57,006 nucleotides of DNA. Origin: Phycisphaerae bacterium. GTDB lineage: Bacteria; Planctomycetota; Phycisphaerae; Sedimentisphaerales; Anaerobacaceae. The notes below the pieces were generated by a model. That model saw nothing but the letters and a program-made list of their open reading frames with translations. It did no database searches and was not told the DNA's origin. A program made the position numbers and the translations under genes. Where the stretch lies: positions 1 through 57,006 of the forward strand of contig JAPLMX010000123.1 of assembly GCA_026386805.1 (NCBI GenBank), in the 5' to 3' direction. Shown one piece after another: positions 5,107 to 57,006 of this stretch (its first letter is position 1; each line of letters opens with the position of its first letter).

Positions 5107-5130
5107 AAGTGAGGCCATTTGCTGCATCCT

Positions 5131-7134: not shown

Positions 7135-7169
7135 TGCACGAACCTCCATTTTGAAACATCGCACTATTT

Positions 7170-7259: not shown

Positions 7260-7284
7260 AAGAGTCTTTGCCTGCATGTCCAAC

Positions 7285-8676
7285 CTATTGCGGGGGCGTC
7301 ACAGCGGCTTGGCGAGGTCTGGCGATGACATCAACAACCGACACGGTGGACAGGTCGTTGCCGATCAGACAGGGCCGAGGGCCGACGACAATCGAGAGGC
7401 GATTCGGGACAACCTCGGCGCCTCTATCCGTCCAATCCCGGAAACCCCAGAGCGTCAGGTACATATCGTGCCCCGCCTGTTGGATCATCACGGGCTGCGG
7501 CGGCGACTTGGTTTGCAGGATCACCTGGCGGTCCTGATCGTCCGCCGACCAGAGAGCCCAGCAATCCTCCCGACCTATCTTGAATCGCAAGGCCCAGAGG
7601 TTCTCATCCTTGGTGGGCAGGCGGTCAACATATTGGGCATTGGCCACCACGGGCGAGATATCCATGAGCACGTCATACGCCGGCTTCGGCGTTAGGTCCG
7701 GCCGGACCAGGCCGAAGTTGTCCTCGTTGTACTCAGCCTTCCACCCGTCGTCCTGAAAGTCGTACCACCACAGTCCCCTGAAGGAGGGCGACGTGCGGGC
7801 CAGCAGGTACAGCCTCGCCAGGTACGATGCCGAAAGCTCCGGGTCGGTCCCGTTCTTGCCGACGTGCGTCGGCCAGCCCATCTCCGTGACGTAGAACGGC
7901 ACATCGTCACCCTTGTACTTGCGGAGCATCTCCTGCACGCCGGTCATCCACGCCGAGCACGCCTCGGGGCCGCGCTGCGGGAATTTGTCGCTGTAGTTGT
8001 AGCTGTGGATCGAGATCGCATCGCAGGAGTCGAGGGCACCGAGCTTGACGGTCTCTTCGAGCCAGCCTTTCTTGACGCCGCCGCTGGTGCAGGCCCCCGC
8101 CATCACCGTGACACCGGGATCGGCGGCCTTGATCCTCGGATAAACGGCCTTGAGCAGCTTCACGTAATCGTCGGCCGAACCGCCCTTTCGATACTGCTGG
8201 GGCATGCCGATGCTGATGTCCCACTCGTTCCAGATCTCGTACAAACGCACAGTCTTGCCAAAGTGCCGGACGACGAATTCCGCGTACCGGCAGAAGCCCT
8301 CAATCGCCTCCGGCGAGCGGGGCCGGTCGCCGTCATCGTAGAAGCGATTGGCATAGTCCAGGATGAGCAGGACGTCCACACCCTGGGCGGCCGCCCGGCG
8401 GACATAGGGGTCGAATTGCTCCGGCATGGCGAGCTTGCCCTTCTCCCGCTCGACCGCACCCCAGCCCACCTCGTCGCGGATCGAGCTGATGCCGGCCCGC
8501 TTGATCCGGTCGAGGTTCAGGTCGAGGATGCCCTTGCCTTGACTGAAGTGCGTGCACGCCCCGACAATAAACGCACGCTCCTGTGATGCACGTGGCTGCG
8601 CGTCTTGCGCACGAGCCGCACCGATGAAACACAAGACCGCCAACAGAAGACACATCAGAGCATTGATTCTTCGCAT
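7285..8676 (-). CDS. Secreted GH39-like (clan GH-A) glycoside hydrolase
   Basis: A 463-residue protein with a signal peptide (MRRINALMCLLLAVLCFIGA). The TIM barrel opens with GACTHFSQGKGILDLNLDRI and carries the clan GH-A catalytic pair: acid/base Glu151 in EIWNEWD and nucleophile Glu265 in VTEMGWPTH, plus RGLWWYDFQDDG. A small beta domain follows from about residue 340. The layout resembles GH39 and related xylosidase/glycosidase families; substrate not assigned. AGGAG sits nine bases before the ATG at 8676. The last residues (RQAAVTPPQ) run into sequence that may be repeat-derived. Confidence 0.75.
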   Translation of the reverse strand: MRRINALMCLLLAVLCFIGAARAQDAQPRASQERAFIVGACTHFSQGKGILDLNLDRIKRAGISSIRDEVGWGAVEREKGKLAMPEQFDPYVRRAAAQGVDVLLILDYANRFYDDGDRPRSPEAIEGFCRYAEFVVRHFGKTVRLYEIWNEWDISIGMPQQYRKGGSADDYVKLLKAVYPRIKAADPGVTVMAGACTSGGVKKGWLEETVKLGALDSCDAISIHSYNYSDKFPQRGPEACSAWMTGVQEMLRKYKGDDVPFYVTEMGWPTHVGKNGTDPELSASYLARLYLLARTSPSFRGLWWYDFQDDGWKAEYNEDNFGLVRPDLTPKPAYDVLMDISPVVANAQYVDRLPTKDENLWALRFKIGREDCWALWSADDQDRQVILQTKSPPQPVMIQQAGHDMYLTLWGFRDWTDRGAEVVPNRLSIVVGPRPCLIGNDLSTVSVVDVIARPRQAAVTPPQ

Positions 8677-8986
8677 GCCCGGCCACTCCTTGCTATCCTT
8701 CACGACACGCTCAAGCCCCGCAGACAGACAGGCCGCAAGGCATGGCCCACATGATACCAGAGGAACAGCAAATCAGCCACCCATCAGCCAGCACGTTCAA
8801 ATCGCTGCCAGCGAGAACAGTGGCACCACCTCTTGCAAGCTCAATGGCTCTGCGCGGGAGATTGCTTCGTCGTTTCGCTCCTCGCCGTGACAGGACTGGG
8901 CGCTGGATGTCATTGCGAGCGTAGCGAAGCAATCTATGGGCGAACGATATCCGACACGCCGCGATGATCTCACAGGTGCCTGGGCA
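8677..8986. other. Intergenic region with family A repeat
   Basis: No gene seen. The only recognisable content is the palindromic family A copy at 8858-8935. Confidence 0.6.
8858..8935. repeat. Palindromic intergenic repeat, family A
   Basis: The left arm GAGATTGCTTCGTCGTTTCG... and the right arm GTCATTGCGAGCGTAGCGAA then GCAATCT match the copy at 611-686, with the arm order reversed. Confidence 0.8.
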
Positions 8987-11935
8987 TCAATGGGGGCATT
9001 CGATGGACTCGTCGAAGCCGTAGAAGCGGACCAGGGGCGGCGTGTCCTGCCACTCGGTGGGCCGGCATTCGCGGGCACCGGTGGTGTAGTAGATCAGCCG
9101 GATATTCTTGGCTCGAAGCTCGTCCAGGGTCTTTTGCGGGATCCCAGGCTCCAAACCCGGCTCGAAAAGGAAATTCTTCGGGCACAAGTGGGCCCCGCCG
9201 CCGACGCTCTGGGAGAAGTAGCCGGTCAAGACGATCGGCTCGGCTGTCAAGCCTTCGATCCGCGTCTGCTCGAACTGGAGGCACGTGGGCGCGTCCCATC
9301 CCCAGCCCCAGCGGGAGTAGAACCGCGTATTGATGGACACGCCGAGATTGGGGTCCGAGAACGAACATTCCTCGGGCGCATCCTGGTCCGTCGGCTGCCA
9401 CGGCTCGTAAAGGGCGGCCTCCTCGACCGTCGTGGTCTGCTCGCTGTCCAGAGGCACGGGACGCTGGTATTCGACCTCCACGCCGAGGCGGAAATCGCCA
9501 AGCGTCACGACCGGGTCGGGCAGCGTAGCCTGGTACAAAGGCATGGTTCGCAGCCGATACGTGCGCGGGTTGCACAAATCCGGGAACTGCCAACTGTCCA
9601 TGAGATCATACCGGTCGAATTCCCCTTGTGGCGGCTCATAGACGTGCTTAGCGCCGGCCAACAGCGGCAGCTCGCGTGTCTCGTGGCGAATCTGCCCATC
9701 GGCGGCGTACTCGACGATCGCCTCGCCGTAGATGCAGTTCTTGAGATTCTCCTCGCTGAGCCAGAGGCTCTTGGGCCTGAGCGTCCAGAGGGACTTGAGC
9801 CTGTGGTTGGTGAGGACGTTGCTGCCGCGGCCCTGAAGTGTCCGGTACTGCTTGGACTGGGCCAGGAGGAACGGCGTCGTGCACTGGGCAGCGCCGGGCC
9901 TGGGAATCTCGCGAATCTGCTTGAGGAGCAGCTTGCCCTCGGGGGTGGTTTTCTTGAATTCGAGGTCAAGAACGATATCGTCCTTCTGCGTTTCTTCGCA
10001 GTACCGTTCAGCCGAAGCCACGAGCAACTCGTACAACTGGAGGTACTCCGCGTCCCATTGAAGCACGGTGTCTTCCCGCAGGGACACGAGGCTTGAACGC
10101 CGGACCACCCACACCGAGGGTTCCTGGAAGCCGGCGTCGATCCGGACCTCCTCCGGCACGGCATCCATCGGCGGGTTCGTCACGGAGACCGCCCCCTTCT
10201 GACTGACAACACTGACCGACCAACCCGAGCCACGAGTCTTCTCCATCGTCGCGACGCCGTTGGCCAGTTCGATGTCGTCGGGGAACGAGTAGTGCACGAG
10301 CAGGGCCATGCCCACCTGGGCCTCGTCGATCTTGTGCTTGAGCCGCTCCAGGTAGGCGTTGTCGTTGTAGAAGCTGGCGAAGACCTTACGGATCGCCCGA
10401 AAGACGCCCCGCTCGCTTGTCTCCGCCGGATCGCACACACACGGGCCGGCCGTGTCGTTGTCCAGATCGTCCGCGAGACAGCCGCTGAAACTGTCGTACA
10501 GCCCCGCCCCGGTGAACTGCTCGCTGTCCTCCACGTTCGTCGAGCTGCGAAAGCGCAGGTTCCTGCTCGGAGCGAATCCGAACTCGCGCAGGGCATTGAT
10601 GACGCCGGGGCCTGCCTGGCTGAATCGGGTTGCGTCTGTGTCCTTGAACAGATCCCGAATCGCCGCCAGATCGGCAAAGAGGGCCTGCATATCGGCGGGC
10701 GGATAGGTCGGATACTTCGCCAGCCGCCGGGCGATCTCCGCCCGTAATGTCCCGCCGGGATACGCCGTCGGCAGCGGCTGATCCAGAAAGCCCGTCCACA
10801 GATCGAAGGAAAAAGCCAGCGCCGGCTGGGAGCTGTCCGGAATGGCGCGGCACAGAACGCCATAGTTCGATGCTTTGCCGCCGAAGGAGCCGATATCGGC
10901 GGAATGCAGATCGTTCGTATCCGCCCAGAGCCGACCCGGCGAAACCAGCGGACGGATCACCAGCGGCGGCGCCTTCTTGAGCGCCAGCAGTGAGGACCGC
11001 TCGGCCTCCGAGAGAAAGCCAATGTCGAACAGCTTGACCGTGCACGAGGAGCTATACGCGTCCTTCGTGACGGCGAAGTAAACGGTATGGCCGACGAGCG
11101 TTTTCGCCGCCTCGGGTCCTTGCGCCAAATACACAAACGGCACGCCCTGGGAGCGGGACAGGATCGCCACGTGCGAGTTGGGCGTCGAGGGCGCCAGCGA
11201 GACGATCCCCGCCACGGAGGGGACTTCCGCCGGCACGCCGTCGGTCAGCAGAATGTCGTCGGGCAGCAGCTCGCCGGCGGCATACGCCGGCTGGATCTCA
11301 CTGCCGGGGACGAACACGAGCCGCCCCAACGCCCAACCTTCCGAGTAGCTCGCATTGCCCTCGGCCCATTGGGCGGTCGAGCCGACGGGTATGCCCTGGC
11401 CCTCGAACCATTGGCGATTCTGTTCCGTGACCGGGTACTGCTCATAGGTCGGGAAGTAGAAAGCCTTGACATTCGGGTCCGCGATGACGGCGGCCTTCAC
11501 AAGGTGGAAGAACCTCACGGTCTCTTCTCGCGTGTACGGATCGTTGCGAGCGAGTTGGATGCCGTACTCCTGGAAAGGCGGATCGTGCCACGGCGGCAGG
11601 ATGACCGCGCCGAGCACGGCCTGCTGATTGGCCGCGTGGAGTGTGACCGCGTCGAACTGCTCGATGGTCATGCCCAGGAAGGGTTCCAGGCATTCGAGCG
11701 CGAAAGCGAAATGGAATTCATACCGCGCCGAATCCTGGAAATAGACGACGTTCGGATCGAAGAGCGGCTTCGTGATGATCGTGAACTTGACATACGGCGG
11801 CGCGGTCCAACTCTGGAATGGTTCATCGGGCAAGCCGATCTGGTTCTTCCACGGCGGCCCTGGCGGCTCCTCCTGGGCCAAAGCAGAGGACCAAGTGAGC
11901 AATAGAGACAAAGCCGAAACGACCTTCCAAACCAT
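8987..11935 (-). CDS. Secreted protein with phosphohistidine swivel and PPDK-like ATP-binding domains
   Basis: A 982-residue protein with a signal peptide (WKVVSALSLLLTWSSALAQ). Residues 30-220 have no family I recognise. About 225-290 resemble a PEP-utiliser swivel domain, with candidate phosphohistidine His255 in TPNSHVAILSRSQGVPFVYL. From about 345 comes a pyruvate phosphate dikinase N-terminal type ATP-grasp part: FGGKASNYGVL, then RFRSSTNVEDSEQFTGAGLY around Arg463. Swivel before ATP-grasp is the order in glucan water dikinases, the reverse of PEP synthase. An exported dikinase would lack cytosolic ATP, so the role is unclear; the domain may be repurposed. ATG at 11935 has GAGGAG seven bases upstream; GTG at 11941 is the alternative. 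Confidence 0.7.
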   Translation of the reverse strand: MVWKVVSALSLLLTWSSALAQEEPPGPPWKNQIGLPDEPFQSWTAPPYVKFTIITKPLFDPNVVYFQDSARYEFHFAFALECLEPFLGMTIEQFDAVTLHAANQQAVLGAVILPPWHDPPFQEYGIQLARNDPYTREETVRFFHLVKAAVIADPNVKAFYFPTYEQYPVTEQNRQWFEGQGIPVGSTAQWAEGNASYSEGWALGRLVFVPGSEIQPAYAAGELLPDDILLTDGVPAEVPSVAGIVSLAPSTPNSHVAILSRSQGVPFVYLAQGPEAAKTLVGHTVYFAVTKDAYSSSCTVKLFDIGFLSEAERSSLLALKKAPPLVIRPLVSPGRLWADTNDLHSADIGSFGGKASNYGVLCRAIPDSSQPALAFSFDLWTGFLDQPLPTAYPGGTLRAEIARRLAKYPTYPPADMQALFADLAAIRDLFKDTDATRFSQAGPGVINALREFGFAPSRNLRFRSSTNVEDSEQFTGAGLYDSFSGCLADDLDNDTAGPCVCDPAETSERGVFRAIRKVFASFYNDNAYLERLKHKIDEAQVGMALLVHYSFPDDIELANGVATMEKTRGSGWSVSVVSQKGAVSVTNPPMDAVPEEVRIDAGFQEPSVWVVRRSSLVSLREDTVLQWDAEYLQLYELLVASAERYCEETQKDDIVLDLEFKKTTPEGKLLLKQIREIPRPGAAQCTTPFLLAQSKQYRTLQGRGSNVLTNHRLKSLWTLRPKSLWLSEENLKNCIYGEAIVEYAADGQIRHETRELPLLAGAKHVYEPPQGEFDRYDLMDSWQFPDLCNPRTYRLRTMPLYQATLPDPVVTLGDFRLGVEVEYQRPVPLDSEQTTTVEEAALYEPWQPTDQDAPEECSFSDPNLGVSINTRFYSRWGWGWDAPTCLQFEQTRIEGLTAEPIVLTGYFSQSVGGGAHLCPKNFLFEPGLEPGIPQKTLDELRAKNIRLIYYTTGARECRPTEWQDTPPLVRFYGFDESIECPH

Positions 11936-46864: not shown

Positions 46865-46913
46865 TTGACTTTGCCGTGAACTCTTTGTTACTATGTGAGT
46901 ATATTATCACATA
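46865..46913 (+). promoter_or_regulatory. Promoter and ArsR operator of cassette 1
   Basis: TTGACT (46865-46870), a 17-base spacer, then TTACTA (46888-46893). The -10 overlaps a perfect dyad TATGTGA-N8-TCACATA at 46892-46913. A repressor on this dyad would block RNA polymerase. The same arrangement recurs at 48635-48683. Confidence 0.75.
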
Positions 46914-46924
46914 TTCGGAGTTTC

Positions 46925-47257
46925 ATGAGGATGGACAATAAGAAGGCTCTTGTCTTTGAGCGGCAGGCAGAGATCGCTAAGGCGGTCGCGCATCCCTTGC
47001 GGGTGGCGGCGATCGATTTCCTCAAAGACGGCGAGAAGTGCGTCTGCGAGATCGCCGAGCACCTTGGCTCGGAGCGGTCGAACGTCTCGCGTCATCTGGC
47101 CGTGATGGTCCGCGCGGGAGTGCTAAGCTGTCGAAAGGATGGGCTCAAGGTCCTCTACACTCTCAAGACGCCGTGCGTGGCCGAGTTCCTCTCCTGTGCC
47201 ACCCGGGTCCTGAAACACCAGGCAAAAGAGAACGAGAAACTGCTGGCCTCGCTGTGA
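46925..47257 (+). CDS. arsR: ArsR/SmtB family metalloregulator, cassette 1
   Basis: 110 residues, winged helix-turn-helix: FERQAEIAKAVAHPLRVAAI, DGEKCVCEIAEHLGSERSNV, SRHLAVMVRAGVLSCRKDGL, VLYTLKTPCVAEFLSC. CVC in the third helix is the As(III)/Sb(III)-type sensor position; more cysteines lie at LSC, TPC and the later LSC. It should repress its own cassette from the dyad overlapping the promoter and let go when metalloid binds. ATG 46925 has GGAG four bases upstream; ATG 46931 is the alternative. Twelve bases separate it from the permease gene. Confidence 0.9.
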   Translation: MRMDNKKALVFERQAEIAKAVAHPLRVAAIDFLKDGEKCVCEIAEHLGSERSNVSRHLAVMVRAGVLSCRKDGLKVLYTLKTPCVAEFLSCATRVLKHQAKENEKLLASL

Positions 47258-47269
47258 CGGAGATTTCGA

Positions 47270-48607
47270 ATGGATTTTAAGGGCGAGTGGAAAAAGCTCC
47301 TTTTCATCGCCGGGCTGTTTTTCGCGTGTTTTTACCTGCCGGTCGGGGCGCCACGGTTCGACAGTGCCGTCACGGAATCACTCCAGTTGGTGAAATGGTA
47401 CGCACGGGAGCACGTCCTCCTGTGCCTCATCCCGGCGTTCTTCATCGCCGGGGCAATTGGGGTCTTTGTCAGCCAGGCTTCCGTCATGAAGTATCTCGGC
47501 GCCGGGGTCAACAAGTTTTTGGCCTATGGCGTTGCCTCCGTCTCGGGAAGCGTTCTGGCCGTGTGCTCGTGCACAGTGCTGCCCTTGTTTGCCGGCATCT
47601 ACAAGATGGGCGCCGGCTTGGGCCCCGCCACTGCGTTCCTCTATGCCGGGCCGGCGATCAACGTCCTGGCGATCATTCTGACCGCACGAATTCTCGGCTT
47701 GGAGATCGGCATCGCGAGGGCAGTGGGAGCCGTCGCCTTCAGCATCATCATCGGCTTGTTGATGCATCTGATCTACCGCAAGGAGGAGACGGCAAGGGCA
47801 ACCATCCAAATGGCGATGCCCCAACCCCAGGTGAAAAGGCCGCTGTGGAACAACGCCCTCTATTTCGGCTCGATGGTCGGCATCCTCGTCTTCGCCAACT
47901 GGGCTCAGAGCGGCGACATGCGAGCCATCTTCCTCTGCTGTCCGGGCGGTCTGACCACGTATCAGGTCGAGGGCAAGCTGGTCAACAAGACCGAAGAGAC
48001 TGTCACGATTGTGGACACCGGGGGCAAGACCCAGCAGCTTCCGGCCGAACTCATGCAGGGCGTCGAAGAGGTCCAGAAGAACGGTCTCTATGAGTTGATC
48101 TACCGGCTTCGGTGGGCCCTCGTGCTGACCCTGCTGGCGGCATTCGCCTACATGGCCAAATCGTGGTTCAGCCGGGAGGAGTTGGGGGAGTGGGTCGAGG
48201 CGACGTGGGGCTTTGCCAAGCAAATCCTGCCTTTGCTTCTGATCGGCGTACTCGTGTCCGGCTTTCTCCTGGGCCGGCCCGGGCCAAGCCACGAAGGCGT
48301 CATCCCGAACGCCTGGATCAATGCGGCGGTCGGCGGCAATTCCCTCTGGGCCAACCTCTTTGCCTCGGTCGCCGGTGCGTTCATGTACTTCGCCACGTTG
48401 ACGGAAGTCCCGATCGTGCAGGGACTTCTGGGCGCCGGGATGGGCAAAGGCCCGGCGCTGGCCCTGCTCCTGGCCGGTCCCGCCCTGTCGCTGCCCAGCA
48501 TGTTGGTCATTCGCTCGATCATGGGCACGCAGAAGATGGTTGTGTATGTGTCGCTCGTAGTCATCATGGCAACGATTTCGGGTATGGTTTTTGGGGCGTT
48601 CTTTTAG
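47270..48607 (+). CDS. ArsP_1-type permease, cassette 1
   Basis: 445 residues, a predicted permease of the ArsP_1 (DUF318) family. About eight to ten membrane segments: EHVLLCLIPAFFIAGAIGVF, SVLAVCSCTVLPLFAGIYKM, GPATAFLYAGPAINVLAIIL and, near the end, FMYFATLTEVPIVQGLLGAG and LALLLAGPALSLPSMLVIRS. The CSC site in the membrane and the repeated GP motifs mark the family, which includes exporters of trivalent organoarsenicals. A soluble insert of about 60 residues (213-275, YQVEGKLVNKTEETVTIVDT) divides the halves. Co-transcribed with the ArsR in front. Confidence 0.88.
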   Translation: MDFKGEWKKLLFIAGLFFACFYLPVGAPRFDSAVTESLQLVKWYAREHVLLCLIPAFFIAGAIGVFVSQASVMKYLGAGVNKFLAYGVASVSGSVLAVCSCTVLPLFAGIYKMGAGLGPATAFLYAGPAINVLAIILTARILGLEIGIARAVGAVAFSIIIGLLMHLIYRKEETARATIQMAMPQPQVKRPLWNNALYFGSMVGILVFANWAQSGDMRAIFLCCPGGLTTYQVEGKLVNKTEETVTIVDTGGKTQQLPAELMQGVEEVQKNGLYELIYRLRWALVLTLLAAFAYMAKSWFSREELGEWVEATWGFAKQILPLLLIGVLVSGFLLGRPGPSHEGVIPNAWINAAVGGNSLWANLFASVAGAFMYFATLTEVPIVQGLLGAGMGKGPALALLLAGPALSLPSMLVIRSIMGTQKMVVYVSLVVIMATISGMVFGAFF

Positions 48608-48634
48608 GATACAGGAGCATGACGAGAAAAAGTC

Positions 48635-48683
48635 TTGATTTTGCTGCGAACCATTTGTTACTATGTGAGTATATTATCACATA
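48635..48683 (+). promoter_or_regulatory. Promoter and ArsR operator of cassette 2
   Basis: TTGATT (48635-48640), 17-base spacer, TTACTA (48658-48663), overlapping the same perfect dyad TATGTGA-N8-TCACATA at 48662-48683. The identity with cassette 1 suggests both ArsR proteins can act on both promoters. Confidence 0.75.
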
Positions 48684-48697
48684 GTCAGGGACCCATC

Positions 48698-49027
48698 ATG
48701 CTAGATAATACGAAAGTTCTCTTGTTCGAAAGGCAGGCGGAGATTGCCAAGGCGGTGGGACACCCGCTGCGAATTGCGGTCATTGATTTCCTCCGGGACG
48801 GCGAGAAGTGCGTCTGCGACATTGCCGAGCACATCGGTTCCGAGCGGTCGAATGTCTCACGTCACCTGGGAGTCATGGTCCACGCAGGGGTGCTGATCTG
48901 CAGGAAAGACGGGGTGAAGGTGTTCTACAGTCTCAGGACGCCCTGTGTGGCGGACTTCCTTTCCTGCGTCGGCCGCGTCCTGAAGCACCAAGCCGAGGAA
49001 AATGGGAAGCTCCTGGCCTCTCTATGA
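48698..49027 (+). CDS. arsR: ArsR/SmtB family metalloregulator, cassette 2
   Basis: 109 residues, a close paralog of the first ArsR: LFERQAEIAKAVGHPLRIAV, DGEKCVCDIAEHIGSERSNV, HLGVMVHAGVLICRKDGVKV, FYSLRTPCVADFLSC. The CVC sensor cysteines and the TPC...LSC cysteines are kept; LSC of the first protein at the wing is LIC here. The start at 48698 matches the paralog's N-terminus, with AGGGA upstream. Thirteen bases separate it from the second permease. Confidence 0.9.
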   Translation: MLDNTKVLLFERQAEIAKAVGHPLRIAVIDFLRDGEKCVCDIAEHIGSERSNVSRHLGVMVHAGVLICRKDGVKVFYSLRTPCVADFLSCVGRVLKHQAEENGKLLASL

Positions 49028-49040
49028 TAGGAGATTCTGA

Positions 49041-50582
49041 ATGAGTTGGAAAAGCGAGTGGAAGAAACTCGCCTTGATCGCCGTCATATTTCTCGCATTC
49101 TTCTGGCTGCCCATCGGCTGGGGACGATTCGACAACGCGGTCATGGAATCTCTTCACCTGACCAAATGGTACGCCCGCGAGCATGTGCTGCTGTGCCTGG
49201 TGCCGGCCTTCTTCATCGCCGGGGCCATTGGCGTCTTTATCAGCCAGGCGTCCGTCATGAAGTACCTGGGAGCCAAGGCCAATAAGGTGCTGGCCTATGG
49301 TGTAGCCAGCGTTTCCGGCTCAATCCTGGCGGTCTGTTCCTGCACGGTATTGCCGCTGTTTGCCGGCATCTGGCGGATGGGGGCGGGGCTGGGTCCGGCG
49401 ACAGCCTTTCTCTACTCCGGCCCGGCCATCAACGTCTTGGCCATCATTCTCACGGCCCGCATTCTCGGACTGGAACTGGGCATTGCCCGAGCCGTCGGTG
49501 CCATCAGCTTTTCCGTCGTCATTGGCCTGATCATGCACCTGATCTACCGCAAAGAGGAATTGGCCAAGGCGGATGAGCAGCTTACCATGCCTGAGCCGGA
49601 GGTCCGCCGACCGTTGTGGCAAAACACCCTGTTCTTTGCCGTCATGATCGGCATCCTCGTCTTTGCTAACTGGGGCGCGCCGAATGAGTTCGCCTTCAAG
49701 CTCAACGATGGTCGGCAGTTCAACGCCGCTGTCGTCAAGGCTCCGGAGAATCCCGCCGCCGAGGGAGCTTTCTATTCCCTAAAGGTCATCACCGGTGCAA
49801 GTGAGGGCGCGCAAGTATCCGTGCCTGCCGCCGCAATCGCATCCAAGACACCGACACCCGGCACGTGGACGACCCTTTGGCAGAACAAATGGCTCGTGAC
49901 GGCCGGCTTTGCGCTTGCCTTCTCGCTGATCCTGGTCTTCTGGTTCGGCATCCGATGGTGGAAAGTGGCTTTGGCTGCGCTGCCGGCCGTGGTTCTTGCT
50001 CTTGTTCTCCCCATGCAGGGCATAATGGTCATGATTCCCTTTGCAGCGGCCGTTGTCGGGCTATCGGCCATCACCAGCACCCACGAAGGAGAGGCCGGCG
50101 AGTGGTTCGCTTCCACGTGGACGTTCGCCAAGCAGATTCTGCCGCTGCTGTTCTTCGGGGTCCTGGTGGCGGGCTTTCTGCTCGGCCGAGTGGATCACGA
50201 GGGGATTATTCCCAGCAAATACATCGAGATGCTGGTCGGCGATAGTCCGAACACCCTGTTCGCCATCACTGGTTGGGGCGGCGGTGGATTCGAGAGCTTT
50301 GTCCGTGTCATCTGGCTGTTCTGGACAAATTTCTTCTCGTCGGTCTTCGGTGCATTCATGTACTTCGCCACGTTGACCGAAGTGCCGATCCTCCAGGGCC
50401 TGATCGGTTCGGGGATGGGCAAAGGTCCGGCTCTGGCGCTATTGCTGGCCGGCCCGGCGCTGTCGCTGCCCAGTATGTTGGTTATTCGCAGCATCATGGG
50501 GACCCAAAAGACTGTCGTTTTCACTTCGCTGGTCGTCGTGATGTCCACGATCACCGGCATGATTTTCGGGGCGTTGGCCTGA
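49041..50582 (+). CDS. ArsP_1-type permease, cassette 2
   Basis: 513 residues, paralog of the first permease with the same landmarks: KWYAREHVLLCLVPAFFIAG, SILAVCSCTVLPLFAGIWRM, LYSGPAINVLAIILTARILG, FMYFATLTEVPILQGLIGSG. The insert between the halves is longer (about 210-355): a soluble beta part (NEFAFKLNDGRQFNAAVVKA) plus extra hydrophobic segments (WLVTAGFALAFSLILVFWFG, VALAALPAVVLALVLPMQGI). Different inserts on a conserved core suggest different partners or substrates. It leads the run of thiol-protein genes downstream, with a 14-base gap to the first. Confidence 0.88.
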   Translation: MSWKSEWKKLALIAVIFLAFFWLPIGWGRFDNAVMESLHLTKWYAREHVLLCLVPAFFIAGAIGVFISQASVMKYLGAKANKVLAYGVASVSGSILAVCSCTVLPLFAGIWRMGAGLGPATAFLYSGPAINVLAIILTARILGLELGIARAVGAISFSVVIGLIMHLIYRKEELAKADEQLTMPEPEVRRPLWQNTLFFAVMIGILVFANWGAPNEFAFKLNDGRQFNAAVVKAPENPAAEGAFYSLKVITGASEGAQVSVPAAAIASKTPTPGTWTTLWQNKWLVTAGFALAFSLILVFWFGIRWWKVALAALPAVVLALVLPMQGIMVMIPFAAAVVGLSAITSTHEGEAGEWFASTWTFAKQILPLLFFGVLVAGFLLGRVDHEGIIPSKYIEMLVGDSPNTLFAITGWGGGGFESFVRVIWLFWTNFFSSVFGAFMYFATLTEVPILQGLIGSGMGKGPALALLLAGPALSLPSMLVIRSIMGTQKTVVFTSLVVVMSTITGMIFGALA

Positions 50583-50596
50583 TCAAGGAGACATAT

Positions 50597-50830
50597 ATGA
50601 AGAAGATACAAATTTTGGGCACCGGATGCCCCAAGTGCAAGAAGCTGGCGGAGAACACGGAGACAGCCGCCAAGGCGCTGGGCATCGAGTGTGCCATTGA
50701 GAAGGTTACCGATATCAACGAGATCATGAAGTTTGGCGTGATGATAACCCCAGCGCTCGCCATTGACGGCCAAGTCAAGGTCGTCGGCAAGGTGCCCGCG
50801 CCGGATGAGATCAAGAAAATGCTGGTGTGA
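50597..50830 (+). CDS. Small thioredoxin-like redox-active disulfide protein
   Basis: 77 residues: MKKIQILGTGCPKCKKLAEN with the CPKC active site, then FGVMITPALAIDGQVKVVGK with the cis-Pro loop. This is the compact TM0996/MTH895-type thioredoxin often found behind ArsP-type permeases. It lacks a signal, so it acts in the cytoplasm, probably delivering or reducing thiol-bound metalloid for the permease. AAGGAG six bases before the ATG. Confidence 0.9.
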   Translation: MKKIQILGTGCPKCKKLAENTETAAKALGIECAIEKVTDINEIMKFGVMITPALAIDGQVKVVGKVPAPDEIKKMLV

Positions 50831-50863
50831 GCAGTGTCGGACAAGAGGCAGAAAGGGTAGCAG

Positions 50864-51241
50864 ATGAGCAACCAACAATCCTGTGGATGCAGTGGTGGAC
50901 CCAGATTGATCTTTGCGTGCAGCGGTGCGGCGGATGTGGGGGAAATTGCCGATAGGGCCGCCAGAAAGTTGACGCGCGACGGGGCGGGCCGTATGTTTTG
51001 TACAGCCGGATTGGGCGGACGGATCAGCGGTATTCTCAAAACCACGGAGGCGGCCGATGGAGTTCTTGCGATTGACGGTTGCCCGCTGAACTGTGTCAAG
51101 TCCAGCCTGGAGCAGGCAGGGTTCACAGCCTTCAAGCATCTGCAACTGGCGGACCTGGGGCTGGAGAAATGCAAAAGCCCGGCGACGGAGGAGAGTATCA
51201 ATAGAGTGGCGGCACGGGCGGTGGAGATGATCGGCTCATAG
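50864..51241 (+). CDS. DGC-domain putative zinc-binding protein
   Basis: 125 residues. SCGCSGGPRLIFACSGAADV, then AGRMFCTAGLGGRISGIL and VLAIDGCPLNCVKSSLEQAG; DGC followed by PLNC is the family signature. Eight cysteines in all could bind metal or metalloid. DGC proteins recur in arsenic/selenium and metal clusters, but their chemistry is not established. AAAGGG six bases before the start. Confidence 0.82.
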   Translation: MSNQQSCGCSGGPRLIFACSGAADVGEIADRAARKLTRDGAGRMFCTAGLGGRISGILKTTEAADGVLAIDGCPLNCVKSSLEQAGFTAFKHLQLADLGLEKCKSPATEESINRVAARAVEMIGS

Positions 51242-51253
51242 AAAGGATCGCCA

Positions 51254-51745
51254 ATGGCCATTCGATGCTTCCTACTGATAGCGGCGTGCTTGTCATGCCT
51301 GGGCTGTCGGGCAGCAGACCCTTCGAATCCCAAAGATCCCGTATCCTCGGCGAACGATTCGCCAGCCGCTGGTACTCAGACCCAATCCGCTGCCGGCAGT
51401 ACCGTGGTTTACGCCTACTACTTCCATCAGACTTTTCGTTGCCTTTCGTGCCAGTTGATGGAGGAGACGGCCGCCCGCGCGATCCAGGAGAACTTCGCCC
51501 AACCGATCCAGGCTGGGCAGGTGGTTTGGATGCCCGTGAATATCGACAAGCCGGAGGGCAAGGTTCTCCGGCAGCAGTTCCATGTGCGGGCAAGTGAGCT
51601 GGTGCTGGCCCGCAGGGAAAATGGCGTGTGCAAGGAGTCCAAGAAACTGGATGAATTGTCGAGGCTCGTGGACCGCCCGGACGCCTTCTCGAAGTACCTG
51701 GTCGATGAGGTTAATGCGTGCCTGGGGGCGGCGGGAGGCAGATGA
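51254..51745 (+). CDS. ArsF-like thioredoxin-fold lipoprotein
   Basis: 163 residues with a lipoprotein-type N-terminus (CFLLIAACLSCLGCRAAD). The mature part is VYAYYFHQTFRCLSCQLMEE, AARAIQENFA, WMPVNIDKPEGKVLRQQFHV: a thioredoxin-like fold with CLSC. It matches what is annotated as ArsF family (nitrophenyl nitroreductase subunit ArsF-like) in other ars clusters; the exact reaction is unsettled. Likely a periplasm-facing thiol carrier. AAGGA six bases before the start. Confidence 0.75.
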   Translation: MAIRCFLLIAACLSCLGCRAADPSNPKDPVSSANDSPAAGTQTQSAAGSTVVYAYYFHQTFRCLSCQLMEETAARAIQENFAQPIQAGQVVWMPVNIDKPEGKVLRQQFHVRASELVLARRENGVCKESKKLDELSRLVDRPDAFSKYLVDEVNACLGAAGGR

Positions 51746-51875
51746 GATGATGATACTGGCACAGTGTTGCAGTCCCGGTCCGGCAAATACCGTGCTTCTG
51801 CTGGCTACGGCGGTAGGTATGTGGTGCCTCTTCGTGTGGGTCCCTTCGGTATTGAGATCGAAAGGAGATGGTATT

Positions 51876-53162
51876 ATGAGTAAGACGCTAAAGATCGTGG
51901 TGGTCGCGGGTCTGATTTTATCCGTGGCAGCCATCGTGCGTATCAAGCAACAAAGCAAACAAACAGACGCCGTCCAGAGCTTGTCAACACCGGCCGTCGC
52001 TGCCACACCAACGGCATCGGGCCTGCCCCGCTTAGTGGACCTGGGAGCGGATAAATGCATCCCGTGCAAGATGATGGCCCCGATCCTCGCGGAACTGAAG
52101 GAGCAATATAGGGGCAAGCTGGACGTGGTCTTCATCGACGTGTGGAAGAACCCCAATGCCGGCAAACAGTACGGCATCCAACTGATCCCGACGCAGATCT
52201 TTTACGACGCCACGGGTAAGGAGCGGTTCCGGCATGAGGGATTCTTCTCCAAAGACGACATCCTGGCCAAGTGGAAGGAGTTGGGCGTGGACCTGTCGGG
52301 ACCCAGCGCGGTCGCGTCAGCCTTCGAACGGCTTACACCTGTCAAGTTCGATGAGCGCCCGAAGGACACCGTCTGCTATATGTGTGACGGGGACATCAAT
52401 CCCAAGACTCTCGTGACCATTCAGACGGATAAAGGTCCGGTCCGGTTGTGCGGTCCGCACTGCTATTTCATCCTGCACTCGTGTCTGACTGAAGATAAGA
52501 CCGGCTTGGAGAAGAAAGTCACTGTCACGGATTGGGCGGCGGGTAAACCTGTCCCGCTTTCCGAGGCCGCATTTCTGTATGGTGAAGATGAAACCACCGG
52601 CAAACCCTGGATCAAAGCCTTCGCCGTCCGGGAGGCCGCCGGCGCGGAGCGGGCCGCCGGCGGCGGAAGTGTTCTGGCCCTTGCGGCACTCCAGCAGAAA
52701 GAATTGTCCCATCGCTGCGGATTCTGCGACCGTGCCTGCTATCCCCAGGATGCGGCGGAGGTCATCGTGGAAGGCGGGGTACATACCTGGGGCTGCTGCT
52801 CTCACTGCGCGTTGGGCGTGGCGGCCCGGACCGGCAAGAATATCGAGGTGCACGAGAAAGACCGCCTGACCAAGCAAGCGATTGTCGTCAAGACGCTCGA
52901 TGGCAAAATCGCCTCCCTGGAACCGGCGGCAGCGGTCGCGTGGTTCGGCCAGCGCAAGAAGCCCGACGGCACGTGGGCTTCCGCCGGCTGTTTCCATCAG
53001 GGCTTCTTCACGAGCGCCGACAATCTCAAGAAGTGGGTCGAGCAGAACCCTTACGAAACGGGCCGGCTGATCAGTATCAGCCAAGCCCTGGCCGACAAGA
53101 TGAAGCTGTCGGCGGACCAAATCCAGAAAGCCTGCAAGATCGGCGAATGTGCACCGAAATAA
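51876..53162 (+). CDS. Membrane-anchored thioredoxin fused to cysteine-rich metal-binding-like segments
   Basis: 428 residues. An N-terminal helix (LKIVVVAGLILSVAAIV) anchors or exports it. About 50-145 is a thioredoxin domain with CIPC (LVDLGADKCIPCKMMAPILA) and cis-Pro (IQLIPTQIFYD). About 165-205 resembles a TRASH/NosL-type metal site (VCYMCDGDINPKT ... LCGPHCYFILHS). About 280-325 holds RCGFCDRACYPQD and TWGCCSHCALG, and later ASAGCFHQGFFTSADNLKKW; the tail ends CKIGECAPK. I do not recognise the C-terminal half. Probably an envelope metalloid/thiol handler. AAAGGAGA precedes 51876; an in-frame ATG at 51747 with GGGAGG would add a second helix. Confidence 0.75.
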   Translation: MSKTLKIVVVAGLILSVAAIVRIKQQSKQTDAVQSLSTPAVAATPTASGLPRLVDLGADKCIPCKMMAPILAELKEQYRGKLDVVFIDVWKNPNAGKQYGIQLIPTQIFYDATGKERFRHEGFFSKDDILAKWKELGVDLSGPSAVASAFERLTPVKFDERPKDTVCYMCDGDINPKTLVTIQTDKGPVRLCGPHCYFILHSCLTEDKTGLEKKVTVTDWAAGKPVPLSEAAFLYGEDETTGKPWIKAFAVREAAGAERAAGGGSVLALAALQQKELSHRCGFCDRACYPQDAAEVIVEGGVHTWGCCSHCALGVAARTGKNIEVHEKDRLTKQAIVVKTLDGKIASLEPAAAVAWFGQRKKPDGTWASAGCFHQGFFTSADNLKKWVEQNPYETGRLISISQALADKMKLSADQIQKACKIGECAPK

Positions 53163-53195
53163 CCATGTATGGATTCGCATGTGAAGGGTACCACC

Positions 53196-54146
53196 ATGAT
53201 GGCAAAAAGCGTTCTTCCAGCCGCCATTGCGCTGTTCGGATTATCTACCCTCTGGGTCCAGGCAAGTGAACCAGCGGCACCCAAGGCCAAAGTCGACAAG
53301 AAGCCTGGACTTTTGCACGAGGTCTATCCCGGTTTGGCTTCGAGCAGTTTGACCTACGCGAAACTGTCTGATCTGCCTGCCGGTGTGATCCTCAAGGCAC
53401 AAGGGCTTACCATCAGTGAAACGGATGTCGCTGCCGAGATGGGCAAAGCACCCCAGGAAATACAGGCCCAGATCAAGAAGAACGCCTTCTTCCTGCTGGA
53501 GAATCTGGCGACACGTCAGCTCCTGGTCCTGCTGGCCAAAGCGAAGGCACCCGAACCGAAGGCGACGGCGGCATCTGACGAGCGTGCGTCAATCCAGCAG
53601 TACCTCAAAGGGCTGGTCGCCAATGTGCAGGTCAGTGATGCGGAAATCGCCAAGTTCTACGAGGAGAACAAGGACGCCTGTGGCGGCGCGACCCTGGACC
53701 AGGTGAAGGACCAGTTGAAACAACTCGTGCTCCAACAGAAGCAACAGAACCTGGTGGATGAGCATGTCCGCACTCTGGGCCAGCGTATGTCCATTGAGGT
53801 CTCCGCAGCCTGGACGAAGGAACAGGCCGTACTGGCCAAAGACAACCCGGTGGACAAGGCCCGGTCCAGCGGCAAGCCCTCGCTGGTGGATTTCGGCTCC
53901 ACCGGCTGCCGTCCGTGTGACATGCTGGCTCCCATCCTGGAGACCCTGAAGGACAAGTACGCCGGCAAAGTGAACGTGCTGTTCATTCACGTCGGTCAGG
54001 AGCAGATCCTGGCCGCGCGGTACGGCATTCAGAGCATTCCCATGCAGTTCTTCTTTGACAAAGACGGCAAAGAGGTGTTCCGTCACGTGGGCTTTTGGCC
54101 ACAGGAGGAGATCGAGAAGAAACTGGCGGAAATCGGGGTCCAATAG
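53196..54146 (+). CDS. Exported SurA-like/thioredoxin-fold protein
   Basis: 316 residues, signal AKSVLPAAIALFGLSTLWVQ. The middle (about 80-220) is helical and charged (AAEMGKAPQEIQAQIKKNAF, VQVSDAEIAKFYEENKDACG) like peptidyl-prolyl isomerase/SurA helices. From about 230 comes a thioredoxin domain with CRPC (LVDFGSTGCRPCDMLAPILE) and cis-Pro (YGIQSIPMQFFFD). It resembles the thioredoxin part of the preceding gene, so the two may be a relay or paralogous oxidoreductases. CcdA, encoded three bases downstream, is the natural electron donor. GAAGGG seven bases before 53196. Confidence 0.8.
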   Translation: MMAKSVLPAAIALFGLSTLWVQASEPAAPKAKVDKKPGLLHEVYPGLASSSLTYAKLSDLPAGVILKAQGLTISETDVAAEMGKAPQEIQAQIKKNAFFLLENLATRQLLVLLAKAKAPEPKATAASDERASIQQYLKGLVANVQVSDAEIAKFYEENKDACGGATLDQVKDQLKQLVLQQKQQNLVDEHVRTLGQRMSIEVSAAWTKEQAVLAKDNPVDKARSSGKPSLVDFGSTGCRPCDMLAPILETLKDKYAGKVNVLFIHVGQEQILAARYGIQSIPMQFFFDKDGKEVFRHVGFWPQEEIEKKLAEIGVQ

Positions 54147-54149
54147 GTC

Positions 54150-54848
54150 ATGGAGCAATTGTTCACAACTCTGACGCACGCGGTTGAGGGCTCGCCTGCT
54201 ATCGCTGTGACAGCGGCTGTCGTGTGGGGGATTCTGAGCATCGTGCTCAGTCCGTGCCATCTGTCCAGTATTCCTCTGATTGTCGGATTCATTGACAAAC
54301 AGGGCCAGATGTCCACGAAGCGGACGTTCGCCATCTCCGCGCTCTTTGCGGGTGGGATTTTGATTACGATTGCGGCCGTGGGCGCTGTCACGGCCGCCGC
54401 CGGCCGGATGATGGGGGACGTGGGACGCTATGGCAACTATTTCGTAGCTGTCATCTTCTTTCTCGTGGGTCTATATCTGCTGGATATTCTGCCGATGCCT
54501 TGGTCAGGCCCCGGCCAGATCGGGATGAAGCGCAAGGGTCTGCTGGCCGCCTTGATCCTTGGCTTGGTCTTCGGCATTGCCTTGGGGCCTTGCACATTTG
54601 CCTACATGGCCCCCATGCTGGGCGTGACGTTCCGAGTCGCGTCCACCAGCCTGCCCTATGGAATCATCCTGCTGGTTGCCTATGGCGTGGGCCACTGCTC
54701 GGTCATCGTCCTGGCAGGCACGAGCACCGAACTGGTCCAGCGCTATCTGAACTGGAGCGAGAAATCCAAGGGCACCACCCTTGTAAAGAAGGTCTGTGGC
54801 GTCCTGGTCATATTGGGCGGGCTCTACCTGATTTACGCTGCCCCGTAA
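54150..54848 (+). CDS. ccdA: CcdA/DsbD-type thiol-disulfide transmembrane transporter
   Basis: 232 residues with six hydrophobic segments. Redox cysteines lie in SIVLSPCHLSSIPLIVGF and IALGPCTFAYMAPML, one in each half, as in CcdA/DsbD. It moves electrons from cytoplasmic thioredoxin across the membrane to exported thioredoxin-fold proteins, here most likely the neighbouring ones. It is placed in the ars run, three bases after the previous stop, rather than in a cytochrome c locus. Confidence 0.9.
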   Translation: MEQLFTTLTHAVEGSPAIAVTAAVVWGILSIVLSPCHLSSIPLIVGFIDKQGQMSTKRTFAISALFAGGILITIAAVGAVTAAAGRMMGDVGRYGNYFVAVIFFLVGLYLLDILPMPWSGPGQIGMKRKGLLAALILGLVFGIALGPCTFAYMAPMLGVTFRVASTSLPYGIILLVAYGVGHCSVIVLAGTSTELVQRYLNWSEKSKGTTLVKKVCGVLVILGGLYLIYAAP

Positions 54849-54925
54849 TGGCAGGCAACCGGTCGTGCCGCAGGACCATACCGTCATAGATGGAGCACAT
54901 CGTTATCATAAAAGGAGGTAGAAGA

Positions 54926-55606
54926 ATGGACAGACGTAAATTCCTGGCAACCACACTCGCAGCGGGTACAGCGGTGTCGGCGACCTCAACTACCGCCATC
55001 GCTCAGGACCGTAAGGCCGTCAAGATTGTGGGCGTATCGTGCAGTCCCCGCAAGGGCAAGACTACAGCGGCCGCACTGAGCATCTGCCTTGAAGCTGCCA
55101 AAGCCGTCGATCCGGGCGTGACCACAGAGATGATCGAACTGGCAGGTCGCAACATCGGCGTTTTCGACCCGGCTAATCCCAAGGCCACCCAGGGTGGTTT
55201 TGCGGACCTCATTGGCGTTCTGTCGGACCCGAACGTGGGCGGCATTGTCATCGGAACGCCGGTCTACTTCGGCAACATGACCTCCCTGTGCAAAGCCTTC
55301 CTCGACCACTGCATGGCTTTTCGCCAGCAGAAATTCGCCTTGGGCAACAAGGTCGCCGGGATCGTCGCCGTCGGTGCCGCCCGCAACGGCGGCCAGGAAC
55401 TGGCGATCCAATCCATCCATGTCGCTCTGCTATGCCAGGAGATGGTTATTATCGGCGACGGCCGGCCCACGGCACATTTCGGAGCCACGCTGGTCAACGA
55501 CGGCAACGATAGCATCAGCGGCGACGAATTCGGCATTTCCACGGCCAAGAACCTCGGCCGCCGCATCGCCGAAGTCGCTCTCAAGCTCGCGCGAACCGGC
55601 ACTTGA
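54926..55606 (+). CDS. Tat-exported flavodoxin/FMN-reductase-like protein
   Basis: 226 residues. MDRRKFLATTLAAGTAVSAT is a twin-arginine signal, fitting export with a bound flavin. The body is a NADPH-dependent FMN reductase/flavodoxin fold: VKIVGVSCSPRKGKTTAAAL (phosphate-binding loop), GGIVIGTPVYFGNMTSLCKA, KVAGIVAVGAARNGGQELAI. Related proteins without Tat signals reduce quinones or organic arsenicals (ArsH-like), so a redox role on metalloid is possible; this is inference. AGGAGG seven bases before 54926. It closes the second cassette; a new promoter follows. Confidence 0.8.
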   Translation: MDRRKFLATTLAAGTAVSATSTTAIAQDRKAVKIVGVSCSPRKGKTTAAALSICLEAAKAVDPGVTTEMIELAGRNIGVFDPANPKATQGGFADLIGVLSDPNVGGIVIGTPVYFGNMTSLCKAFLDHCMAFRQQKFALGNKVAGIVAVGAARNGGQELAIQSIHVALLCQEMVIIGDGRPTAHFGATLVNDGNDSISGDEFGISTAKNLGRRIAEVALKLARTGT

Positions 55607-55625
55607 TGGTGAACAAATTTCGCTG

Positions 55626-55669
55626 TTGACACGTAAGTTCTTCTACAGTACAATTCGTTATATGGCGAA
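55626..55669 (+). promoter_or_regulatory. Promoter and probable operator of arsR-arsC-arsM
   Basis: TTGACA (55626-55631), 17-base spacer, TACAAT (55649-55654): close to the sigma-70 consensus. Directly after it, TTCG-N8-CGAA (55654-55669) is a dyad placed like the operators of the other cassettes but with a different sequence, so this unit probably has its own repressor. Confidence 0.75.
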
Positions 55670-55684
55670 ATATGAAGGATGTGT

Positions 55685-56050
55685 ATGCGTGATGTTCTGG
55701 ATGTGACTAAGGCGTTGGCGGATGGCAGCCGGCTTCGAGTCCTGATGGCGCTCGGGGGCGGCGAGCTGTGCGTCTGTCAGATCGTGGAATTGCTGCAACT
55801 GGCCCCTTCAACAGTCTCCAAGCACATGTCCATCCTGCGGCAGGCCCGGCTGGTGGAGAGCCGCAAGGACGGCCGTTGGATGTACTATCGACTTCCTGAT
55901 CAGGATGCACCGAGAGCCATCGGAGAGGCCATTGCGTGGGTTCAGCGTCATCTGGCACAATCGCCACAGACGCAGCGCGATGCGAAGAAGCTGCAAGAGA
56001 TCCTCGCCATGGATCCGGAGAAACTATGCAAGAGACAAAACGGAAGCTGA
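55685..56050 (+). CDS. arsR: ArsR family arsenic-responsive repressor, cassette 3
   Basis: 121 residues: DVTKALADGSRLRVLMALGG, GELCVCQIVELLQLAPSTVS, KHMSILRQARLVESRKDGRW, MYYRLPDQDAPRAIGE. ELCVCQI is the classic As(III) sensor site in the recognition domain. It is of a different subtype from the other two ArsR proteins and has its own operator-like dyad. ATG 55685 has AAGGA five bases upstream; ATG 55679 is the alternative. The 3' end overlaps arsC by 25 bases. Confidence 0.92.
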   Translation: MRDVLDVTKALADGSRLRVLMALGGGELCVCQIVELLQLAPSTVSKHMSILRQARLVESRKDGRWMYYRLPDQDAPRAIGEAIAWVQRHLAQSPQTQRDAKKLQEILAMDPEKLCKRQNGS

Positions 56051-56478
56051 AGGTGTTGTTTTTGTGCACGGGCAACTCGTGCCGGAGCCAGATGGCCGAG
56101 GGCTGGGCGAGGCGCCTCAAGGGCGATGAGATCGAAGCCTATTCGGCGGGCATCGAGCCGCACGGACTCGATCCCAAGGCTGTCCAAGTCATGGCCGAAG
56201 CCGGCGTCGATCTCTGCGGCCATCGCTCCAAGCACCTCGACGAGGTCAAGCACATTGCCTTCGACTACATCGTGACCGTCTGCGACCAGGCCCATGAATC
56301 ATGCCCCCTGTTTCCGGGCAAGACGAAGGTGATTCACGCCGGGTTCGACGATCCGCCCAAGTTGGCCGAGAACAGCGAGAGCGAGGAAGAGGCACTCAAC
56401 CATTACCGGCGGGTGCGGGATGAGATCAGAACGTTCGTTGAAAAGGACTTGGGAAAGGGGTTGGAAAATGGTCGATGA
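56026..56478 (+). CDS. arsC: Arsenate reductase, low-molecular-weight phosphatase type
   Basis: 150 residues: VLFLCTGNSCRSQMAEGWAR carries the C-x5-R-S P-loop, followed by YSAGIEPHGLDPKAVQVMAE, YIVTVCDQAHESCPLFPGKT (the two resolving-type cysteines) and HAGFDDPP. It reduces arsenate to arsenite using thioredoxin. GGAG five bases before the ATG; it overlaps the arsR end by 25 bases and arsM by 11, indicating tight translational coupling. Confidence 0.94.
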   Translation: MQETKRKLKVLFLCTGNSCRSQMAEGWARRLKGDEIEAYSAGIEPHGLDPKAVQVMAEAGVDLCGHRSKHLDEVKHIAFDYIVTVCDQAHESCPLFPGKTKVIHAGFDDPPKLAENSESEEEALNHYRRVRDEIRTFVEKDLGKGLENGR

Positions 56479-57006
56479 TTCCGGTGCGGACAAGAAGGAG
56501 CGAATCCGGGAAACGGTCCGTGAGGGCTATGGCAAGATCGCGAAGACGGGGGGCACCTGCGGCTCAGCATCGTGCTGTGGTTCGGGAACAGCCAAGCAGG
56601 TGGCCCACGTCGTTGGATACAGCGACGCGGACCTCGCCGCACTGCCGGAGGGGGCCAATATGGGCCTTTCCTGCGGGAACCCGACGGCTTTGGCCTCGCT
56701 CAAGGCGGGCGAGGTGGTCCTGGACCTGGGTAGTGGCGGCGGTTTCGACGTGTTCATCGCGGGACAAAAAGTCGGCCCGGCCGGGCGGGTGATCGGCGTG
56801 GATATGACACCCGACATGGTGAGCAAGGCACGACATGGCATATCGGCATACAAGGAGCGCACCAGACTCGACAACGTCGAGTTCCGGCTGGGCGAGATCG
56901 AGCACCTACCCGTGATCGACGCCAGCGTGGACGTGGTGATCTCGAACTGCGTGCTGAACCTTTCGCCGGACACGCCACAGGTCTGGCACGAGATCGGGCG
57001 GGTGCT
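56468..57006 (+). CDS. arsM: Arsenite methyltransferase (cut by window edge)
   Basis: The first 179 residues of an ArsM: GGTCGSASCCGSG near the N-terminus, GLSCGNPTALASLKAGEVVL with the first conserved substrate Cys, the SAM-binding DLGSGGGFDVFIAGQKVGP, VDMTPDMV, and the second conserved Cys in VVISNCVLNLSPD. It methylates As(III) to methyl- and dimethyl-arsenicals with SAM and thiols. The third As-binding cysteine region is beyond the right edge. ATG 56468 overlaps the arsC stop by 11 bases. Confidence 0.93.
   Translation, partial: MVDDSGADKKERIRETVREGYGKIAKTGGTCGSASCCGSGTAKQVAHVVGYSDADLAALPEGANMGLSCGNPTALASLKAGEVVLDLGSGGGFDVFIAGQKVGPAGRVIGVDMTPDMVSKARHGISAYKERTRLDNVEFRLGEIEHLPVIDASVDVVISNCVLNLSPDTPQVWHEIGRV

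Follow-up and report, generated by a model that had tools for sequence, protein, structure and literature searches.

The window analysed here is the entire contig JAPLMX010000123.1 (57,006 nt), which belongs to a 5.55-Mb, 279-contig genome of a Phycisphaerae bacterium, and its distal part carries an arsenic resistance (ars) island. Within this island, the gene at 51876–53162 encodes a thioredoxin–NosL–MerB fusion protein, and we put about even confidence in the proposal that a conserved ars-operon set, consisting of this fusion, CcdA, ArsE and an ArsP-type permease, acts as an electron relay which would keep the invariant cysteines of the fusion reduced for the binding of trivalent arsenicals outside the cytoplasm. 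The order on the plus strand is arsR-arsP twice, then an ArsE-type thioredoxin, a DGC-domain protein, an ArsF-family protein, two large thioredoxin-containing proteins, CcdA, an FMN_red-family protein and arsR-arsC-arsM, the last gene being incomplete at the contig end. An original prediction, made on the letters of the DNA, had listed these genes, and profile matches found all of them in the places and on the strand that it gave (Table 1).

Domain organization and invariant cysteines of the fusion protein

The two large proteins had been described in the original prediction as thioredoxin-fold proteins. Each does contain a thioredoxin domain, but in the fusion this domain covers only the N-terminal third, and the N-terminal two thirds of the 53196–54146 protein are not thioredoxin (a short stretch there weakly matches a peptidyl-prolyl isomerase model). 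The NosL-like (about residues 155–275) and MerB-like (about residues 277–417) domains of the fusion had been overlooked. The MerB-like domain matched PF03243 with 65.7 bits (cut-off 27), while the NCBIfam MerB model NF033555 gave 26.8 bits, far under its cut-off of 200. With the NosL sequence profile, the fusion of the window scored 15.7 bits (cut-off 24) and 18 of 24 members matched at E values up to 1 (best 3.5e-7); a sequence comparison of this domain with solved structures gave no significant match. The AlphaFold2 (AF2) model of the whole fusion had a predicted local distance difference test (pLDDT) score of 88.4 and a predicted template modelling score of 0.67. In the structural comparison of this model, the rows shown matched the thioredoxin part only. 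The C-terminal part was therefore modelled alone (pLDDT 93.6), and in comparisons of this model it matched both the NosL fold and the MerB fold. Some proteins of this kind are labelled "organomercurial lyase" in public records.

The cysteines of the fusion were compared in 180 aligned sequences (the window, 59 loci and 120 listed database relatives, sets which may overlap). In each of the two C-terminal domains, a CxxC motif is followed by a beta hairpin and then by another pair of cysteines at the start of a helix, giving the clusters C167/C170 with C192/C196 in the NosL-like domain and C281/C284 with C308/C311 in the MerB-like domain. As read from the sequence and secondary structure, both clusters appear to have a treble-clef layout, and a treble clef is the origin proposed for the NosL/MerB fold in the accessible part of PMC4999995. 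Outside the four-cysteine clusters, C307, C372, C420 and C425 are also invariant. In the HMMER alignment to MerB, Cys96, Asp99 and Cys159 correspond to C308, C311 and C372, and Cys117 corresponds to D329; all four residues are identical in 180/180 sequences, so that the counterpart of Asp99 is a cysteine throughout. According to the available part of PMC8261052, Asp99 is essential for MerB along with Cys96 and Cys159. MerB2 carries a serine at the Asp99 position. No selenocysteine was found in the fusion, whose frame (51876–53162) is open up to a TAA stop and has cysteines at the relevant sites.

Conservation of the gene set across genomes

A genome collection covering, by its description, 84,980 species was scanned and yielded 377 relatives. 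The analysis used the best 80 of these, which correspond to 79 distinct loci, so that close relatives are favoured. The full fusion was found in 59 of these 79 loci. Same-strand neighbours were arsE and ccdA (72 loci each), arsR (62) and arsP (56), followed by dgc (39), fmn (27), arsC (25), arsM and arsF (21 each) and the type of protein encoded at 53196–54146, detected by its peptidyl-prolyl isomerase profile (19). Many contigs are short, and these counts are therefore lower bounds. The commonest further gene, as judged by sequence clustering, encodes an ACR3-like pump (26/79; one member scored 389 bits for a cut-off of 282.8).

The reverse test was performed from the side of CcdA on 61 genomes, the genome of the window and 60 relatives. 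CcdA was present in 42 of them; in 41 of these 42 the thioredoxin lay within 3 kb, and in the exception it lay 4.1 kb away on the same contig. Because arsE and ccdA each occur in 72/79 loci and the CcdA reverse test agrees, the grouping of these two genes with the fusion or its thioredoxin is beyond chance. An ArsP gene was found within 12 kb of ccdA, on the same contig and strand, in 33 of the 42 genomes, and conversely CcdA was within 12 kb at 33 of 49 ArsP places. The full fusion was present in 16/61 genomes. It was not found in 3 of 8 other genomes of the genus, in one of which the contig ends inside the set. Its named close relatives come from Planctomycetes, Sedimentisphaerales and Phycisphaerales. 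By record titles, the full fusion extends over about nine phyla (Planctomycetota, Verrucomicrobia, Kiritimatiellae, Hydrogenedentota, Sumerlaeota, Omnitrophota, Armatimonadetes, Firestonebacteria and one alphaproteobacterial bin), a spread based on metagenome bins of which some are perhaps misplaced.

Proposed electron route and its ligand

Passage of electrons outward through the membrane by CcdA is established for its family. ArsE belongs to the TIGR00412 family, which we take to be the "redox-active disulfide protein 2" of Castillo and Saier. Outward passage by CcdA was raised as a possibility in the available part of their work (Castillo and Saier 2010). The two cysteines of ArsE, the four of CcdA (C36, C148, C183 and C216) and the two of each thioredoxin type were present in 81/81 aligned rows (the query and the best 80 matches, some loci being fetched twice). 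These cysteines are the ones that a cytoplasm-to-periplasm electron route would require, which speaks for the claim of the original prediction that CcdA could supply exported acceptors. A CcdA-thioredoxin fusion, suspected from long open frames, was not seen in the listed CcdA frames.

The gene set, the domains, the conserved residues and the operator copies are observed; upon these we infer the flow of electrons, the export and orientation of the fusion, its ligand and any roles of ArsF, DGC and FMN_red. The conserved CxxC and the cysteines in the membrane suggest a first transfer in which CcdA would receive electrons from ArsE that has been reduced in the cytosol. By the known function of CcdA and DsbD, CcdA would then reduce the exported thioredoxins, meaning the thioredoxin domain within the fusion and also the 53196–54146 protein in loci that have it. 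These would in turn hold C167/C170/C192/C196, C281/C284/C308/C311 and C372 as thiols, in a manner comparable to TlpA and ScoI. Finally, and this is the least certain step, the clusters might take up trivalent arsenicals, for instance those exported by ArsP, and hold them in the periplasm or hand them on. ArsR is predicted to switch on the run from its duplicated operator when metalloid is present. Trivalent arsenicals are the likely ligand, given that the set lies among the genes for ArsR, ArsP, ACR3, ArsC and ArsM. Should trivalent organoarsenicals be bound or cleaved by the fusion, arsenic detoxification would gain an extracytoplasmic branch. The proposal also joins in one testable system the CcdA and thioredoxin genes known from ars operons since 2010, the ArsE and ArsF families and a MerB relative with a cysteine for its active-site aspartate.

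Several results weigh against this proposal. The full fusion is missing from 20 of the 79 loci (two of these have the NosL-like part, one of them running off the contig), and the relay can therefore serve without it. The conservation side by side expected in the original prediction holds for the core (arsE and ccdA in the 79 loci, 41/42 in the reverse test), but dgc, arsF, FMN_red and the gene for the second thioredoxin have a patchy distribution. The first two attempts at distance correlation gave weak values. The third gave rho values of 0.53 (C-terminus of the fusion with CcdA), 0.58 (C-terminus with ArsE) and 0.55 (CcdA with ArsE), for permutation maxima of 0.21, 0.23 and 0.25 respectively; these correlations are confounded by shared ancestry and give minor support. 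The thioredoxin domain of the fusion correlated with its own C-terminal part with a rho of only 0.14, a mismatch that could reflect domain exchange or too little variation. By eye, positive charges lie on either side of the anchor of the fusion, and the membrane orientation of the fusion is a prediction. The clusters of cysteines might instead be zinc sites with a structural role. Lastly, 49 of the 61 genomes, which are incomplete, contained weaker matches to MerA, the best with 390.8 bits for a cut-off of 454.45.

Alternative readings

Mercury resistance was rejected as the principal function. No MerA exceeded the TIGR02053 cut-off in any of the 61 genomes, that of the window included, which makes mercury unlikely, and Asp99 is replaced. 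Another reading is carbon–metalloid bond cleavage: the MerB-like domain might cleave organoarsenicals outside the cytoplasm and be recharged by the fused thioredoxin. The counterparts of Cys96 and Cys159 are invariant and lie in a site within the MerB fold. The gene arsM was present in 10 of the 16 genomes that have the fusion, in 9 of 26 with CcdA but no full fusion and in 3 of 19 with neither; by these raw counts, the link is modest. The residue essential in MerB, Asp99, is a cysteine in 180/180 sequences and the NCBIfam MerB models stay far under their cut-offs, so we regard such a lyase as rather improbable. The same low probability applies to its most explicit version, in which the fusion would be an exported, oxygen-independent carbon–arsenic lyase whose MerB-fold site, with a third thiolate in place of Asp99 (C308, C311 and C372), would cleave the carbon–arsenic bond of methyl- or aryl-arsenite delivered by ArsP and be reset by its own thioredoxin via CcdA. 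If true, this enzyme would do under anaerobic conditions what the dioxygenase ArsI does with oxygen, and it would be a candidate catalyst of one step in arsenic demethylation; for DMAs, PMC10579292 describes the demethylation mechanism as unclear.

An ArsEFG-type function, in which ArsE and ArsF would reduce nitro or pentavalent organoarsenicals and the CcdA-like protein would be the efflux permease ArsG and not an electron carrier, is unlikely. ArsE and ArsF exceed the cut-offs of their models, the CcdA protein has ArsG (NF040495) as its top NCBIfam match and an action on organoarsenicals is reported for ArsEFG in the part of PMC9144182 available. However, the ArsG score is 48.9 bits (48.4 in the genome search) for a cut-off of 200, ArsF is found in 21/79 loci against 72/79 for CcdA, the cysteines typical of electron transfer by CcdA are invariant in the aligned rows, and a separate permease is present. 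Copper or zinc handling by a NosL-like chaperone and an SO_0444-related permease, with a coincidental placement in an ars island, appears still less probable: NosL is a copper chaperone according to the title of 7og7 and permease 1 matches the SO_0444 copper/zinc efflux transporter model (116.6 bits), but under the cut-off of 300, and many loci have ACR3, arsC, arsM and arsR around the set. We would give the same small weight to the possibility that the clusters are structural zinc sites, that the fusion binds no metalloid and that the relay is a general periplasmic reductase for cytochrome c maturation or for disulfide repair under metalloid stress. CcdA acts as a general reductant elsewhere. 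The pattern of a CxxC, a hairpin and a cysteine pair at a helix, seen in both domains, is that of treble-clef zinc fingers (PMC4999995). The frequent linkage to ars genes and the invariance of C307, C372, C420 and C425 beyond the clusters speak against this reading. A role in supplying ArsC for arsenate reduction, the proposal of Castillo and Saier, would leave the exported parts incidental and is very improbable. In the portion of their report available, the gene trio lies beside arsC in 7 of 8 instances, and arsC is present in 25/79 loci here; yet 54/79 loci show no same-strand arsC in the stretch examined, and ArsC is cytosolic, as these authors themselves note, so that exported thioredoxins would be unable to serve it.

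Comparison with known systems

The pathway had been considered undescribed in the original prediction. This claim of novelty fails for the relay core because it was reported in 2010: Castillo and Saier described 8 instances in which this redox trio adjoins ars genes and proposed that it supports arsenate reduction, and the accessible part of their paper mentions neither NosL- nor MerB-like domains. The fusion itself, with its cysteine for Asp99, was not met among the papers listed by the literature searches, which covered few subscription papers. The ArsEFG system, reportedly described by Chen, Zhang and Rosen in 2019, resembles the present set by its ArsE- and ArsF-family proteins and by a DsbD_TM-family membrane protein with ArsG as its top match; it differs in that the CcdA protein is far under the ArsG cut-off and in that the fusion is added here.

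In the Sec-assisted organometallic (SAO) system, SaoL is MerB-like and SaoT thioredoxin-like, as far as the available part of PMC13188914 goes. Like the present set, it combines a relative of MerB with a thioredoxin-like protein and with a permease (SaoE, by its NCBIfam name) that has matches in common with ArsP_1 proteins, whereas here there is no selenocysteine, the domains are in one protein and the setting is ars instead of the ABC-transporter subunits of SAO. The SaoL model NF040728 gave 13.7 and 15.0 bits on two cuts of the fusion, under the cut-off of 140. The fusion has in common with MerB and MerB2 the fold and the counterparts of Cys96 and Cys159, but it has Cys for Asp99 and Asp for Cys117, and is fused to other domains with a predicted membrane anchor; the genomes searched contained no MerA that passed the cut-off. 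TlpA reduces the periplasmic copper chaperone ScoI (PMC6696091, available part); here, in contrast, the thioredoxin and the metal-site-like domains are in one polypeptide, in an arsenic operon.

Operators, permeases and layout of the gene run

The operator-like palindrome matched twice in the window and never in 100 shuffles, and the duplicated 22-bp sequence is a clean candidate for an ArsR operator. The first copy overlaps a promoter-like -10 element (TTGACT-18-TACTAT, 46865–46894, 9/12 match). The two upstream arsR-arsP units resemble a tandem duplication (77% over 300 nt). Between arsR2 and ccdA, neighbouring genes are separated by short gaps of at most 130 bases (before the fusion gene); these gaps and the operator-like palindrome make a single transcript over these genes plausible. 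Another promoter-like site (55626–55654, 11/12 match) precedes the third ArsR gene.

In permease 1, C52 is present in 49/49 and C99 and C101 in 50/50 aligned rows. The SaoE model NF040736 scored 102.3 and 96.1 bits on the two permeases, under the cut-off of 325. With scores that fall short of the SaoE, SO_0444 and ArsG cut-offs, no narrower family name is justified for the permeases or for CcdA. Both permeases have a long insertion between the conserved halves (445 and 513 residues for a 294-position model), and the two insert sequences differ. An ArsP type with an insertion of about 100 residues is mentioned in the available part of Castillo and Saier. The DGC protein keeps its four cysteines in 44–45 of 45 aligned rows, and the cysteines of the CLSC motif of the ArsF-family protein are kept in 23/23. 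An Rfam scan of the window and the island gave zero matches. A tRNA-flanked island was ruled out, with zero tRNA in the window.

Table 1. Features of the ars island, with positions in the 57,006-nt window. Scores are profile matches unless stated otherwise; Tat, twin-arginine translocation.
Feature	Position	Strand	Evidence
Operator-like palindrome, 22 bp (TATGTGA-N8-TCACATA), upstream of arsR1	46892..46913	.	Identical copy at 48662–48683
ArsR-type regulator 1	46931..47257	+	NF033788 77.9 bits, cut-off 55 (read from upstream start)
ArsP_1-type permease 1 (445 aa)	47270..48607	+	PF03773 252.7 bits, cut-off 32.3
Second identical palindrome, upstream of arsR2 and the long gene run	48662..48683	.	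Sequence identity to first copy
ArsR-type regulator 2, first gene of the relay-bearing run	48698..49027	+	NF033788 77.1 bits (read from upstream start)
ArsP_1-type permease 2 (513 aa)	49041..50582	+	PF03773 211.9 bits, cut-off 32.3
ArsE-family small thioredoxin (CPKC), predicted cytosolic electron donor	50597..50830	+	TIGR00412 "MTH895/ArsE family" 111.4 bits, cut-off 62; PF13192 97 bits
DGC-domain protein	50864..51241	+	PF08859 99.1 bits, cut-off 27
ArsF-family protein, lipoprotein-like start (by eye)	51254..51745	+	NF040494 82.2 bits, cut-off 60
Thioredoxin–NosL–MerB fusion (428 aa), predicted N-terminal membrane anchor	51876..53162	+	PF00085, PF03243; MerB2 E 2.2e-12
Thioredoxin domain of fusion (CIPC, C61/C64)	52008..52295	+	C61 and C64 in 180/180
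NosL-like domain of fusion (C167, C170, C192, H195, C196)	52338..52700	+	
MerB-like domain of fusion (C281, C284, C307, C308, C311, C372)	52704..53126	+	
Protein with signal-like start and C-terminal thioredoxin (CRPC)	53196..54146	+	PF00085 51.4 bits
CcdA/DsbD_TM membrane protein	54150..54848	+	PF02683 40.0 bits, cut-off 27.1
FMN_red-family protein, Tat-like start MDRRKFLATTLA (by eye)	54926..55606	+	PF03358 83.0 bits
ArsR-type regulator 3	55679..56050	+	NF033788 93.6 bits
ArsC, thioredoxin-type arsenate reductase family	56026..56478	+	TIGR02691 144.9 bits, under cut-off 174.3; PF01451
ArsM, cut by contig end	56468..57006	+	NF008823 231.9 bits over first 172/272 positions, cut-off 263

Further observations on arsenic loci

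The genome of the window has a second arsenic cluster (locus L123, contig C175, positions 1–9456), which encodes ArsM, a protein with a cysteine-rich tail, a DsbD_2-family membrane protein, ArsD, a P-type ATPase (by eye), a DUF6951 protein and ACR3. Five of the 79 loci (L069, L075, L090, L109 and L111) additionally have genes for a GcvH-like lipoyl protein and for an OsmC-like one, together with two or more DGC genes, and three of the five also have a pyridine-nucleotide-disulphide oxidoreductase; with families read from one member each, these loci perhaps contain a lipoyl thiol branch. A pyrroline-5-carboxylate-reductase-like gene was observed in 12/79 loci (L073, L078, L079, L084, L087–L090, L094, L097, L099 and L109); the single member examined, that of L087, is located between arsE and the fusion gene.

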